A stretch of 64,000 bases of DNA, taken from NCBI GenBank assembly GCA_018396705.1, contig JAGTQZ010000004.1:124001-188000 (forward strand), given 5' to 3'. The notes below the pieces were generated by a model. It saw only the letters and a program-made list of their open reading frames with translations. It had not been told where the DNA came from and made no database searches. Source of the stretch: Candidatus Bathyarchaeota archaeon (GTDB lineage: Archaea > Thermoproteota > Bathyarchaeia > Bathyarchaeales > Bathycorpusculaceae). Positions within the stretch are counted from its first letter, which is position 1. Each line of letters starts with the position of its first letter. Of this stretch, positions 49,028-55,270 are shown in pieces. Position numbers and translations under genes: made by a program.

Positions 49028-49795
49028 TTACGTGCTTACCTTTGGGGGCGGGCGGACTGCCTTGCCAAGCTTTATTCGTAATGCTATACGGTACAGTTTC
49101 CGCAGCGACTTCACAAGCTGCTCAACAGTCGGCAGTGCCGAATAAATTAAGGGTATATGATCGTACTCTGCCAATCTAATCGAGTAATCGTCCGGTCTCA
49201 TGCCATGGAAGACGACAACTCGCGGTTTTAGGCTGCTCATGCGCACAAGCATCATAGGTGAATTTTCGTTACTAATATTTGTAAAAATAAGCGCCCGTTC
49301 AGTTGTAGCGCCAAACAACTGGGCGTACTCAAAGCCAGAAAGTGTTTCTATGGTTTTACGGCTGTCCACAATAGTGTAGCCCAAGATCTCCTTAACTTTT
49401 AGGTTAGAGCAAGCCACAATTTCGCCCTTAATGGCTTTGCACAAATATTCAACCCGCACTGAAATTGGGAACTCCCGCAAGTCCACAACTGCCATGCTTG
49501 GCGAACTTGTAAGCTTGGCGAATTCGCGAATGAAACGGCTTCCCCTCTCCTCGTCAATCTGCAATAAAGCCCAAACAAAACGTCGCACAAACTTTGTACC
49601 TGGGCTTTTCCGCCGTCCACTTTCATAATCACTTATAACAGAAGGCGAAAGCATCATCTTATCAGAAAGTGTGGTCTGCGAAACACCGAAAAGCTCCCGC
49701 CACTTCCGCATGGCGGCGCCCGGCTTATTGGAGAGGATGATCTCGCCAGCGATTCGCCTTGCGAGAACCTCGCGAACGTTAGGGGACACAGACAT
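49028..49795 (-). CDS. HTH-domain transcription regulator (COG1709 type)
   Basis: 255 residues from ATG 49795, chosen because GGGAAAGGCG precedes it and a TATA-like TTTATAT (49849-49856) is too near the upstream ATG at 49840. N-terminal XRE helix-turn-helix: WRELFGVSQTTLSDKMMLSPSVISDYESGRRKSPG. The C-terminal ~150 residues are an alpha/beta sensor domain (EILGYTIVDSRKTIETLSGFEYAQLFG). Many archaea carry such a regulator; the target is unknown. Divergent from the cyclase island, so a candidate regulator of it. Confidence 0.82.
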   Translation of the reverse strand: MSVSPNVREVLARRIAGEIILSNKPGAAMRKWRELFGVSQTTLSDKMMLSPSVISDYESGRRKSPGTKFVRRFVWALLQIDEERGSRFIREFAKLTSSPSMAVVDLREFPISVRVEYLCKAIKGEIVACSNLKVKEILGYTIVDSRKTIETLSGFEYAQLFGATTERALIFTNISNENSPMMLVRMSSLKPRVVVFHGMRPDDYSIRLAEYDHIPLIYSALPTVEQLVKSLRKLYRIALRIKLGKAVRPPPKVST

Positions 49796-50091
49796 GTAAA
49801 CGCCTTTCCCTTTCAGTCCGCCATCTTCACCCATAAACATGCCAAATATAAAACTGTACCGCTCCTATGCAAACAACATTGGAGAAGGAAGAGACAAATC
49901 GTCACAGTGCATGTGTGCTGCGCCTGCATAGAAAATCTTGTAACTAGAAACTAGATGAGCCTAAACACCATGAAAAACTTGCATTAAACATCAATGTGGA
50001 TCCAACAACGTAATAAATGTTAACGCATCAAAAGGTTCTTGTTGATAGCAAAACTTATTTTGTAGGCGATGGAAATCTTTCAAGGTGAACG

Positions 50092-50976
50092 GTGGTTAAG
50101 ATGAAAAAGTTTGAAGTTGATTCTAAATACCTGCATGGCATGCTAGATCCAAAATACATTGGCAAACCAGAAGATGTTCTAAAAAAGGTCAGCGTCGAAA
50201 TATTGGGCAAGGAAGTTGAAGTATACGATCTATCGCAGCCGTTTGGACCAGGTGTACCGCTTTGGCCATACTTCGAGGATATTAAAATTGAAAGGATGCA
50301 TTATCATGCAAAGTCCCGTGTGTTATCGCAAGTGCTTACACATACGATGCATGTCTCCACCCATGCTGACTCTCCAATACATGTTGAAGAAGGCTTCCCA
50401 TCCACTGAGCAAATACCAATAGAAAGGTACATGGGAAAAGGCGTCGTCGTGTCCATACCAAAGGGCAAATGGGAAATAATCACTCCTGAAGATCTTGAAA
50501 AAGCTGATCCGCCGATAGAAAAGGGTGACATAGTAATAGTTAACACTGGCTGGCACCGTTATTGGGGCGACACCGTCAAATACTTCTGTTATGCACCAGG
50601 CTTCTACAAAGAGGCAGGAGAATGGTTCGTGAAAAAACAGGTCAAGGCTGTGGGCACAGACACACAGGCGCTTGATCATCCTCTTGCAACTAGGGAGGTG
50701 TGGTGTCAGCCTGGAGGTGACGAGCGAAACCGTGTTTTACCATGGCTTGCAGACGAATATAAAAAGGAGACGGGAAGAGATGTAACTGAGGACTTCCCAT
50801 ATTGGGAGCCATGCCACAGGCTTTTACTGACGCATGGCATAATGGGCTATGAAAACGTTGGAGGCGACATAGACAAAGTCACAGGCAAAAGATGCACAAT
50901 CATAGGCCTACCATTAAGGTGGGTAGGCGGAGACGGATCAATAGTAAGGCTAATAGCAATCGTCGAAAAAAGATAG
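50092..50976 (+). CDS. Cyclase-family metal-dependent hydrolase
   Basis: 294 residues from GTG 50092 (AAGGTG 5 nt upstream; ATG 50101 is possible). The family motif HxGTHxDxPxH appears as H87-V-S-T-H91-A-D93-S-P-I-H97, with Ser in place of Gly. Relatives include kynurenine formamidase, isatin hydrolase and ring-opening cyclohydrolases. Four further His/Glu pairs are typical metal ligands. First gene of the island holding the RidA-like protein and molybdenum transhydroxylase; ring opening of a reduced polyphenol would be consistent, but this is inference. Confidence 0.82.
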   Translation: MVKMKKFEVDSKYLHGMLDPKYIGKPEDVLKKVSVEILGKEVEVYDLSQPFGPGVPLWPYFEDIKIERMHYHAKSRVLSQVLTHTMHVSTHADSPIHVEEGFPSTEQIPIERYMGKGVVVSIPKGKWEIITPEDLEKADPPIEKGDIVIVNTGWHRYWGDTVKYFCYAPGFYKEAGEWFVKKQVKAVGTDTQALDHPLATREVWCQPGGDERNRVLPWLADEYKKETGRDVTEDFPYWEPCHRLLLTHGIMGYENVGGDIDKVTGKRCTIIGLPLRWVGGDGSIVRLIAIVEKR

Positions 50977-51191: not shown

Positions 51192-51659
51192 TCAAGGGAT
51201 GTATCCAATAGCATCTATTTCTATGAGAAACTCTGGCCTTGCTAAACTTGCTACAACCGCCACCGTGCTTGCCGGTGGGTTCTCAACTAGGAAAGGAGCG
51301 TATTTTTGGTAATATTCTAGTTCTGTTTTTCGCATGCGAGGGTAATCCTCCAAATTCTTAAGAAGTATCAAAGTTTTGACAATGTTGTTCATAGAACTGC
51401 CCACCTCCTCCATGGCTTTTCTTACCTTGTCAAGCGCGTTGATCATTTGTTCTTCAAATGTTGAAGGTATTTCTAGAGTCTCATCATTCTGGCCTTGGCA
51501 TCCAGAGATGAATATTAGGTTGCCAACGACCACTGATCTGGAAAATTTAGGATGCTGTGGAGGTACATGGGGATAAGCCAACTTCTTGCCAGCCCAATAC
51601 TCAGGATAATACCTTACTTCATCCCTTGCTTTGATTTTTATACGTGCATCCTTCACCAT
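51192..51659 (-). CDS. RidA-family protein with altered active site
   Basis: 155 residues, slightly long because of an N-terminal ~35-residue extension (DEVRYYPEYWAGKKLAYPHV). RidA core: VGNLIFISGCQGQND, NALDKVRKAMEEVGSSMNNIVKTLILLKNLEDYPRMRKTE, and PASTVAVVASLARPEFLIEIDAI. The catalytic arginine of 2-aminoacrylate deaminases is replaced by Ser in PAST, so it is probably not a canonical RidA. Divergent from the molybdenum enzyme across a 147-nt promoter region. Confidence 0.88.
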   Translation of the reverse strand: MVKDARIKIKARDEVRYYPEYWAGKKLAYPHVPPQHPKFSRSVVVGNLIFISGCQGQNDETLEIPSTFEEQMINALDKVRKAMEEVGSSMNNIVKTLILLKNLEDYPRMRKTELEYYQKYAPFLVENPPASTVAVVASLARPEFLIEIDAIGYIP

Positions 51660-51806
51660 ACTTTGCCTCCGAATTATTAAGATTAAAAGGCTTTTTACAT
51701 TAAAAATTTTTAATTAGATAATCTGGCATTTGTTTCGCACAAATTTTTTGTATTTTTAAATTTTATATCGTAAACAACAAACTTTAAGAAAGAGGTGGTG
51801 GGGAAA

Positions 51807-54419
51807 GTGCACGAGTTTGAGGCTGGTTTTGGGCGAACACTCGAAGACGGCACCAAGATCTTCACTAATTGCACTGTTGGCGGGCCTGTCTTTGTATACG
51901 TCAAAGATAGAAAAATTATACGGGTAACCCCAATCGAGTTTGGACCTGATGATGCGGAGTCTTGGGTCATTGAAGCTAGAGGAAAGTGTTTCAAACCTCC
52001 AAGAAAGTCGCTACTTGCGCCCTACGTAATTGCTGCTAGATCTAGGGTTTATTCGCCGGAAAGAGCTCTTTACCCGCTTAAAAGAGTTGATTTTAACCCT
52101 GATGGTGATAGGCACCCAGAGAACAGGGGTAAGTCAGGATACGAGCGAATAAGCTGGGAGGAAGCTTTTGATATAATTACAAAGGAGATCGAACGTGTAA
52201 AAAGACAGTACGGTCCAGCGGCCATAGCTGCAACTGCATCTTCTCATCATGAATGGGGAAACATAGGATACCGCCATAGTGCATTCTTTAGATTCTTCAA
52301 CCTTTTAGGTTTCACATATATCGACCACAACCCGGACAGCTGGGAAGGATGGCATTGGGGGGCAATGCACATGTGGGGTTTCTATTGGAGGCTAGGCGTT
52401 CCAGAACAATACGACCTGCTTGAAGACGCTTTAAAGCACTGTGAAATGATAGTTTTCTGGTCGTCGGATCCCGACTCAACTCGTGCTATAGGCTATCAGG
52501 GATACGAATCTGCTCCTTGGAGGCAATGGTTGAAGGACCTTGGAGTGAAAATGATTTTCATAGACCCTCACTATAACTCTACTGCTGTCCTTTTTGCGGA
52601 TAAATGGCTTGCGCCTAGACCTGGAACGGATACCGCGTTGGCCTTAGCTATTGCTAATGTGTGGATAACTGAAAATAGGTATGACAAAGAGTACGTGGCA
52701 ACGCATACGTATGGATTCGATGAATTTAAAAAGTATGTGCTCGGAGAAGAAGACAAAACGCCGAAGACTCCTGAATGGGCTGAAGAGCTTACTGGAGTTT
52801 CTGCTAGGGAAATAAGAGCTCTGGCGAGGGAATGGGCGTCCAAAAGAACAATGTTGGCTGCTGGAGGACTTGGCGGATGGGGAGGCGCTTGCAGAGCAGC
52901 ATATGCAACTGAATGGGCTAGGATGATGGTTGCGCTTGTCGCTATGCAAGGTCTAGGCAAACCAGGAGTGAACATTTGGAGCACCACCCAAGGCGCGCCT
53001 TTCAACGCAGACTTCTATTTCCCGGGATATGCAGAAGGCGGGATATCAGGCGACCCGCAAAAGACTGCAGCCTCTTTTGAACTTTTAGGCAGGGGAATGA
53101 CCAAAAAGCCTACGACTTGCCCAGTCCATGATAATCATCACATACCTAGGCTATTGTTGCCGGAATGCATATTGAACCCACCCGTTGAATGGAGAGGAAG
53201 AGGTTTCTGTGGCGAGTCAATAGAGCATCAACTTAGACTATATAGGTATCCAGCAACAGGGTACAGTGAAGCTAAAATACTGTACAGGATTGGCGGGGCA
53301 TACATTGGCACGATGACTGAAACCAACAGGTGGGCTAAAATGTACCGGAGTCCAAAACTGGACTTGATCGTAAGTCAGACTTTATTCGTTAAGGAACCGG
53401 ATACAAAATTTGCTGACATAATTCTTCCCGCGTGTACAAACTTTGAACGCTGGGATATAAGCGAATGGGCTAGCTGCTCCGGTTACGTCCCGCATTCCTC
53501 TTGTGGAACCAACCATCGGGTTATAGTACTTCAGATGAAATGTATAGAACCTTTAGGAGAGTCTAAAAGTGACTACGCAATATTCGCTGAGCTAGCTAAA
53601 AGACTTGGCTTTTACGATGAATTCACCGAGGGCGGAATGACTGAACTGGATTGGGTTAGAAGAATGTTCAATGTAACCGACATATCAAAGTATATATCCT
53701 GGGAGGAATTCAAGAGGAAGGGATACTTTGTTGTACCTCTTCCAAAACCATATAGGTCAACACCAGCCTTACGTTGGTTCTACGAAAACCGACCCCGTGA
53801 CACTCCTGATTGGGGTCCGGCTCCACGGGATGCTCCAGTTAACAAGGTGGGCTTGGCGACGCCCACTGGGAAAATAGAGTTTGTCTCTCAATCACTTATG
53901 CGTTTTGACCCCGGAGATAAAGAGAGGCCCCCAGTACCACATTTCATCCCTTCATGGGAAGGCCATTTGTGCGAAAAAGCAAAGACGTACCCGCTTCAGC
54001 TAATTTCAACACATCCTCGATTCTCCTATCATACACACTATGATGGCAAGGGAACGTGGATAAATGAAATTCCTGAACATAGAGTCCTTAAAGAGGATGG
54101 GCACTATTACTGGGTTATAAGGATAAACCCGAAGGACGCTGAACCACGAGGAATTAAAGACGGAGACATAGTTAGAGTTTATAATGACAGGGGTTCTGTA
54201 TTATGTGTTGCAAGAGTCACTGAAAGAATTCGGCCTGGTGTTGTGCATGGTTGGGAATCGTGCAACGTCTATGAACCCATAGGTGAACCGGGAGATCCAA
54301 AATCAATTGATAAAGGAGGCTGCCTTAACCTGTTAACCCCCTCAAGGTTTATATCTAAAAATGCTTGCGGTATGGCGCCTAACTCCTGTTTGGTTGAGGT
54401 TGAGAAATGGAGGGGTTGA
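51807..54419 (+). CDS. Pyrogallol transhydroxylase-like molybdopterin oxidoreductase, large subunit
   Basis: 870 residues from GTG 51807 with AGAGGTG 9 nt upstream (GTG 51795 or 51798 possible). DMSO-reductase fold with bis-MGD binding regions (FWSSDPDSTRAIGY, GGLGGWGGACRA, GVNIWSTTQGAPFN). It lacks the N-terminal four-cysteine Fe-S motif; only TNCTVGGPVFVYV is present, as in transhydroxylase. Candidate Mo ligand and substrate residues are H147, D177, S178 and Y408. By memory of the Pelobacter acidigallici enzyme (875 residues; His144, Asp174, Ser175, Tyr404) these align with a constant offset. The likely reaction is hydroxyl transfer on trihydroxybenzenes. Other substrates are possible. Confidence 0.8.
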   Translation: MHEFEAGFGRTLEDGTKIFTNCTVGGPVFVYVKDRKIIRVTPIEFGPDDAESWVIEARGKCFKPPRKSLLAPYVIAARSRVYSPERALYPLKRVDFNPDGDRHPENRGKSGYERISWEEAFDIITKEIERVKRQYGPAAIAATASSHHEWGNIGYRHSAFFRFFNLLGFTYIDHNPDSWEGWHWGAMHMWGFYWRLGVPEQYDLLEDALKHCEMIVFWSSDPDSTRAIGYQGYESAPWRQWLKDLGVKMIFIDPHYNSTAVLFADKWLAPRPGTDTALALAIANVWITENRYDKEYVATHTYGFDEFKKYVLGEEDKTPKTPEWAEELTGVSAREIRALAREWASKRTMLAAGGLGGWGGACRAAYATEWARMMVALVAMQGLGKPGVNIWSTTQGAPFNADFYFPGYAEGGISGDPQKTAASFELLGRGMTKKPTTCPVHDNHHIPRLLLPECILNPPVEWRGRGFCGESIEHQLRLYRYPATGYSEAKILYRIGGAYIGTMTETNRWAKMYRSPKLDLIVSQTLFVKEPDTKFADIILPACTNFERWDISEWASCSGYVPHSSCGTNHRVIVLQMKCIEPLGESKSDYAIFAELAKRLGFYDEFTEGGMTELDWVRRMFNVTDISKYISWEEFKRKGYFVVPLPKPYRSTPALRWFYENRPRDTPDWGPAPRDAPVNKVGLATPTGKIEFVSQSLMRFDPGDKERPPVPHFIPSWEGHLCEKAKTYPLQLISTHPRFSYHTHYDGKGTWINEIPEHRVLKEDGHYYWVIRINPKDAEPRGIKDGDIVRVYNDRGSVLCVARVTERIRPGVVHGWESCNVYEPIGEPGDPKSIDKGGCLNLLTPSRFISKNACGMAPNSCLVEVEKWRG

Positions 54420-54421
54420 AA

Positions 54422-55270
54422 ATGGTTAAATGGGGTTTGGTTGTAGACATAACGAAATGCAATGGGTGCTACAATTGTTTCTTAGCTTGTAAGGATGAAC
54501 ACTGGGACAATGACAATTTGCCCTACTCTGCGCCACAACCTAGGCATGGACATTTCTGGATGCAAGTTTTCACAAGGGAGAGAGGCCAATTCCCCCATGT
54601 GCGCGTGGCATATATGCCCGTACCCTGCATGCACTGCGACAACGCGCCATGTATTAAGGCAGCTAAAGATAACGCGATCTACAAAAGACCAGACGGGATA
54701 GTGATAATTGATCCACAAAAGACAATCGGCCAGAAAAATCTAGTCAATTCGTGTCCCTATGGCGTTATTTTCTGGAATGAGGAGAGAAGAATTCCGCAGA
54801 AATGTACTTTTTGCGCCCACCTCCTTGACAAAGGCTGGAAAGAGCCGAGATGTGTGCAGGCATGTCCAACTGGAGCACTGATATTCGGAGACCTAGACGA
54901 CCCTAACAGTGAAGTATTCAAGCTGGTTGCGACTGGAAAAGCCGAACCGTTTAAACCGGAACTTGGCACAAATCCAAGGGTATATTATATCGGGTTGTAC
55001 AGATTTACTAAAGAATTCATCGCAGGAAGCGTGGCCTTCAAAGACACCGACGAATGCGCAGAAAACGTCAAAATAACTCTTATTAACAAAGAAGACGGCG
55101 AAACTAGAACGACCTTTACGAACGCGTTTGGAGACTTCGAGTTTGACGGATTAAATCCAGGCGAATACTCGATAAGCTTTGAGTATTCAAACTACCAAGC
55201 GAAGAGTATAGAAGTTAAATTAGATAAAAGTACATACATCGGCTACGTTTTTCTTGAAAGGACTAAATAG
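54422..55270 (+). CDS. Transhydroxylase-like Fe-S subunit with beta-sandwich C-terminal domain
   Basis: 282 residues from ATG 54422, with GGAGGGG before it; an ATG at 54407 lies inside the large subunit. Twelve cysteines (CNGCYNCFLAC, CMHCDNAPC, NSCPYG, CTFCAHLL...CVQAC) suit three [4Fe-4S] clusters, as in transhydroxylase beta subunits and fewer than the usual four. From ~residue 200 a transthyretin/Cna-B-like domain follows (AENVKITLINKEDGETRTTF, NAFGDFEFDGLNPGEYSI), a feature known from Pelobacter transhydroxylase. The gap to the large subunit is 2 nt, so they are co-translated. Confidence 0.83.
   Translation: MVKWGLVVDITKCNGCYNCFLACKDEHWDNDNLPYSAPQPRHGHFWMQVFTRERGQFPHVRVAYMPVPCMHCDNAPCIKAAKDNAIYKRPDGIVIIDPQKTIGQKNLVNSCPYGVIFWNEERRIPQKCTFCAHLLDKGWKEPRCVQACPTGALIFGDLDDPNSEVFKLVATGKAEPFKPELGTNPRVYYIGLYRFTKEFIAGSVAFKDTDECAENVKITLINKEDGETRTTFTNAFGDFEFDGLNPGEYSISFEYSNYQAKSIEVKLDKSTYIGYVFLERTK

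Follow-up and report, generated by a model that had tools for sequence, protein, structure and literature searches.

The window analysed here is a stretch of 64,000 nucleotides from the genome of a Candidatus Bathyarchaeota archaeon. At positions 51,807 to 55,270 it carries two adjacent genes which a first-pass annotation, made without database searches, had proposed to encode a molybdenum enzyme like the pyrogallol transhydroxylase (TH) of Pelobacter acidigallici. The question raised by this locus is whether the encoded protein, here called AthLS, is indeed a TH-type enzyme and, if so, what it could be used for in an archaeon.

The two subunits of AthLS

The full open reading frames, both on the + strand, extend from 51795 to 54419 (874 aa when counted from its first GTG) and from 54407 to 55270 (287 aa, open from an ATG). 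Since the Shine-Dalgarno-like sequences GAGGTGGTG and GGAGGGG are found upstream of GTG 51807 and ATG 54422, respectively, these starts are favoured. AthL, the large Mo-bisPGD subunit (51807-54419), would then have 870 aa and the small subunit AthS (54422-55270) 282 aa, the sizes given in the first-pass annotation. In phmmer searches, AthL scored 1147 bits against the TH large subunit of P. acidigallici (4v4c_A) and AthS 250 bits against the small one (4v4c_B), values far beyond chance, and the next PDB family for AthL was DMSO reductase with 281 bits. Direct alignment gave 60% identity over the full length of the large subunit, and AthS is 43% identical to its counterpart. AthL matched the Pfam families PF21423 (pyrogallol hydroxytransferase domain 1), PF00384 and PF01568. 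The Fe-S motif described as absent from the large subunit was indeed missing: Cys26 and Cys65 are the only cysteines in the first 200 residues, and the Fe4S4 domain of molybdenum enzymes gave no Pfam match in AthL.

Ten TH positions were checked in the alignment (H144, H145, Y152, R153, D174, S175, W176, W354, Y404 and Y560), nine of which we take to be the TH active site, the neighbouring H145 having been added. AthL is identical to TH at all ten, the Ser ligand included. H147, D177, S178 and Y408 of AthL align with H144, D174, S175 and Y404 of TH, so the active-site His, Asp and Ser noticed at first reading recur at an offset of +3 and the Tyr at +4. When about 100 family sequences were checked, this signature was present in most TH-type members. 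A proteobacterial group had Y or W at R153 and F at W354, and a second archaeal/Chloroflexi group had kept H144 and the D-S-W stretch and lost the second His, Y152 and R153.

An AlphaFold model of AthL, built with 31 family sequences, reached a mean pLDDT of 84.9 and a pTM of 0.88, with lower confidence in parts, some active-site stretches among them. Its best PDB match was TH (TM 0.95, Z 48.8, rmsd 1.7 over 851 residues), ahead of TorA as the next family (Z 42.0, TM 0.77-0.78). Acetylene hydratase and the arsenate and polysulfide reductases followed at Z of about 30; 2e7z, 2vpw and 6cz7 scored 68-95 bits against AthL, far under TH. These values, together with the missing N-terminal Fe-S motif, rule out an identity as one of those three enzymes, and other clades of DMSO reductases are ruled out by the scores and fold ranks.

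AthS matched Fer4_11 and, at its C-terminus, CarboxypepD_reg (PF13620), which has the transthyretin-like fold predicted at first reading. Twelve of its 13 cysteines lie in the Fe-S domain, in the same columns as in Pelobacter TH. Compared with a relative that has the full set of 16, the small-subunit partner of a further paralogue in the same genome (C4:90k), the four cysteines missing from AthS are the same four missing from TH, and the count of twelve rather than sixteen given earlier is therefore borne out. One [4Fe-4S] site has been lost, the same one as in TH, and by homology AthS would carry three [4Fe-4S] clusters.

Phylogenetic position and paralogues

Two trees were calculated, one with 82 rows under LG+G4 with DMSO reductase as the outgroup and one with 42 rows under the C20 mixture; in both, support was measured by SH-aLRT alone and long branches were flagged. 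In both trees AthL grouped with a paralogue on contig C5 of its own genome and with the homologue of another archaeal genome, G056 (SH-aLRT 99-100), and this archaeal trio was sister to the rest of the TH-containing group, including Pelobacter TH and Eubacterium oxidoreducens. The TH-containing group with AthL at its base comprised 55 of the 82 rows in the first tree (SH-aLRT 99) and 31 of the 42 in the second (SH-aLRT 96). In neither tree was AthL nested beside Pelobacter TH. AthL thus grouped with TH rather than with another clade of DMSO reductases, and retained the Ser ligand, as the first-pass annotation would lead one to expect. Because AthL branches off deeply, as a sister lineage inside the family, we infer, rather than observe, that it shares strictly the substrate of the Pelobacter enzyme. 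Its closest non-archaeal relatives are found in Dehalococcoidia (67-70% identity), and a second archaeal pair, formed by the own-genome paralogue C4:73k and a protein of genome G182, fell with Dehalococcoidia.

Within its 1.7-Mb genome the archaeon has three TH-type paralogues with 67-85% identity, which are alike at the checked positions except for W354, replaced by M in C4:73k. Further AthL-type paralogues of the same genome (L012:12426-14945 and L010:9163-12605) lie near genes for ABC transporters of the branched-chain-amino-acid type, which might import aromatics. On plasmids of Burkholderia, Salipiger and Ensifer (L148-L150), TH-family enzymes about 50% identical, with Y or W at R153 and F at W354, adjoin VOC and fumarylacetoacetate-hydrolase genes; these enzymes are probably hydroxylases of aerobic ring cleavage.

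Archaeal residence and candidate phloroglucinol pathway genes

In the host genome (1.71 Mb, 97% complete), the locus belongs to a contig of 455 kb and is flanked on either side by archaeal housekeeping genes. AthL-type proteins (E <= 1e-150) were found in 4 of the 257 genomes of the class, and no such protein turned up in the remaining three genomes from the host's genus; the cyclase described below (E <= 1e-40) was also found in 4 of the 257. This patchy spread and the bacterial nearest relatives suggest that AthL and the cyclase were gained laterally. The rarity of AthL in the class and its nearest non-archaeal relatives in Dehalococcoidia could also be explained by bacterial DNA binned with an archaeal genome. 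Against this speak the archaeal genes flanking the locus and the recurrence of homologues in other genomes of the same taxonomic order, with AthL 84% identical in G056 and the cyclase 90-96% identical in G182 and G025. Because archaeal contigs carry these genes and other members of the class have them too, contamination is highly improbable and was rejected.

A cyclase-family metal hydrolase (50092-50976, + strand, PF04199) is encoded 0.8 kb upstream of AthL. It belongs to the family of dihydrophloroglucinol cyclohydrolase (DPGC), biochemically shown in Clostridium scatologenes (PMC10470551), and is a candidate for this function. Its sequence is 90% identical to the first gene product of a phloroglucinol operon in G182, a second Bathyarchaeia genome, 59-66% identical to the cyclases of four bacterial TH/phloroglucinol loci (L025, L027, L037 and L096), and 36-41% identical to the cyclase of the E. 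oxidoreducens cluster, with the HxxTHxD motif conserved. A PDB search with it returned distant formamidase and isatin-hydrolase relatives only. Between the cyclase and AthL, a divergent gene (51192-51659, - strand, PF01042) encodes a RidA-family protein, likely an accessory. RidA genes beside AthL recur in bacteria and archaea, with homologues close to AthL in three bacterial loci (77% identity in L028, 74% in L084 and 70% in L056) and near AthL in the archaeal genome G056 (90%). Judged from its position, the HTH_3 DNA-binding protein encoded at 49028-49840 (- strand, PF01381) is a possible local regulator.

In PMC10470551, PGR, DPGC, TfD and TAL are characterised from C. scatologenes, and E. 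oxidoreducens is named as having the cluster too. The archaeal genome encodes a homologue of each of the four, three of them linked and the cyclase apart. The sole BKACE (TAL family) is encoded at 27.7 kb of contig C5, adjoined by a 3-hydroxyacyl-CoA dehydrogenase (HADH; TfD family) and accompanied by a cupin, an SDR as the PGR candidate, an acetoacetate-CoA ligase and two CoA-transferase subunits. The ligase scored above its NCBIfam equivalog cut-off and BKACE below every one; the function of an SDR is not readable from its sequence. Since 53 of the 257 genomes of the class carry a BKACE, this gene alone is not diagnostic. About 9-12 kb further along C5 there is a DAPG hydrolase gene (PF18089) and, close by, AthL and AthS genes, the AthL being 85% identical, into which the contig end cuts. 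The two cyclases of the genome both lie less than 3 kb from AthL-type genes, the second beside another paralogue. The pathway genes are therefore spread over separate loci, the cyclase with AthL and the other three enzymes with the TH paralogue on C5. In G182 they are contiguous, in the order cyclase-HADH-BKACE-cupin-SDR-AACS-CoAT-CoAT, and 78-90% identical to the own-genome proteins. BKACE, cyclase, HADH, SDR and cupin also occur together in E. oxidoreducens DSM 3217, and among 80 TH loci scanned in other genomes, many of them on short contigs, at least three of these five genes were found in 13 and all five in 7.

As to the source of trihydroxybenzenes, the first-pass annotation had pointed to the breakdown of lignin or tannin, and this link stood in part. 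Candidate sources, judged by sequence family, are the DAPG/phloretin-hydrolase-type gene, amidohydrolases of a family with decarboxylases among its members, and one UbiD decarboxylase, which is away from the pathway cluster and not specific. The URO-D type O-demethylase that would provide a link to methoxylated lignin units was not found in the genome. The DAPG hydrolase family gene (L009:7945-8574) lies beside the 85% AthL paralogue and could act on acylated precursors, phloretin for instance, to free phloroglucinol.

A second type of cluster was observed in two Bathyarchaeia genomes (L011:6258-15641 and L140:1040-13905). It combines a TH-like large subunit with an altered active site, a small subunit in which all 16 Fe-S cysteines are present, another cyclase of a second kind, an SDR, a thiolase, DUF35, an enoyl-CoA hydratase and a CoA transferase III. 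Leaving AthLS aside, the genes of the two genomes share 73-81% identity. Possibly, these clusters represent a different ring-degradation route.

Proposed function and comparison with known systems

Sequence, fold, active-site residues, Fe-S count and genome context agree with the TH-like identity first proposed, and that AthLS belongs to the TH family is near certain. Combining sequence, model and analogy, we propose with a probability of roughly 0.7 that AthLS is a pyrogallol-phloroglucinol TH feeding the opening of the phloroglucinol ring, with acetyl-CoA as the end point. AthLS would shift a hydroxyl group between trihydroxybenzenes, converting pyrogallol to phloroglucinol with no net redox change and, by analogy, with tetrahydroxybenzene as co-substrate. 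The SDR would reduce phloroglucinol to dihydrophloroglucinol, whose ring would be hydrolysed by the neighbouring cyclase, and the 3-hydroxyacyl-CoA-dehydrogenase-like enzyme would oxidise the product of ring opening. BKACE would then split the diketo acid into acetoacetate and acetate-level products, and the acetoacetate-CoA ligase would activate acetoacetate for acetyl-CoA metabolism. Pyrogallol as the substrate, the direction of the reaction and the joint working of the separate loci are what we infer from these data.

Two other functions within the family were weighed. AthLS could be a hydroxylase of the resorcinol or 3,5-dihydroxybenzoate type, placing water-derived oxygen onto a phenol and passing electrons out via the small subunit. 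RehL and TH belong to one Ser-ligated family (PMC10100899), AthL is a deep branch in it, and the plasmid-borne proteobacterial relatives, next to genes of ring-cleavage type, are plausible hydroxylases. However, precisely that proteobacterial group departs from TH at R153 and W354, where AthL keeps the TH residues as at the other checked positions, and the surrounding phloroglucinol pathway needs no extra ring oxidation, so that we consider a hydroxylase unlikely. Somewhat less likely still is a transhydroxylase acting on another isomer, for instance in the interconversion of hydroxyhydroquinone or tetrahydroxybenzene, with the three paralogues dividing the substrates among them. The presence of three such enzymes in one small genome would fit, as would the sequential transhydroxylations of hydroxyhydroquinone described for Pelobacter massiliensis in a work cited by PMC3971608, but, apart from the single W354 replacement, the paralogues do not differ at the checked positions. 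A TH of the pyrogallol-phloroglucinol type remains our preferred reading.

If this is true, TH and the phloroglucinol route would offer one explanation of how Bathyarchaeia cleave aromatic rings anaerobically, a step so far unexplained, and for the lineages having it the gene set offers a concrete, testable ring-opening route. It suggests one way for these sediment-type archaea to use plant phenols without oxygen. More broadly, we give even odds to the view that some Bathyarchaeia mineralise plant trihydroxybenzenes via a laterally acquired TH and phloroglucinol route and carry, in addition, a second, undescribed ring-degradation cluster with a TH-like enzyme and four Fe-S sites. Our literature search found no paper linking Bathyarchaeia with phloroglucinol, and in the accessible text of papers joining Bathyarchaeia and pyrogallol the enzyme was not assigned to archaea. 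Since PMC10470551 already notes phloroglucinol clusters in Archaeoglobus, an archaeal genus, the pathway is not wholly new in archaea; what is new is a known kind of enzyme in an unexpected host, together with candidates for a downstream pathway that is nearly complete and extends beyond the window.

AthLS resembles AthLS of P. acidigallici (4v4c) in the layout and sizes of its subunits, in sequence (60% and 43% identity), in the Ser ligand of Mo and the checked active-site residues, in the three-cluster small subunit with its transthyretin-like tail, and in fold (Z 48.8). Unlike the Pelobacter enzyme, the bathyarchaeal AthLS is known from sequence, forms a separate deep branch in an archaeal host, has cyclase and RidA genes as neighbours and occurs with several paralogues in one genome. 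With RehLS of Azoarcus anaerobius it shares the Ser-ligated DMSO reductase subfamily (PMC10100899); RehLS catalyses a net oxidation, in contrast to the reaction proposed here for AthLS. The SDR, cyclase, HADH-like enzyme and BKACE of the genome correspond to the PGR-DPGC-TfD-TAL cluster of C. scatologenes and E. oxidoreducens (PMC10470551), and in the relative G182 they form one operon. In the own genome, unlike in those clusters, the genes are dispersed and an acetoacetate-CoA ligase and CoA transferases are added; a cupin accompanies the pathway genes both here and in E. oxidoreducens, to whose pathway sequences the archaeal ones are 36-37% identical. Closest among non-archaeal systems are the TH loci of Dehalococcoidia (Chloroflexota; for example L025, L027 and L028), with AthL at 67-70% identity, the same pathway neighbours and, in L028, RidA, although in these bacterial hosts TH and the pathway genes stand side by side in one locus.
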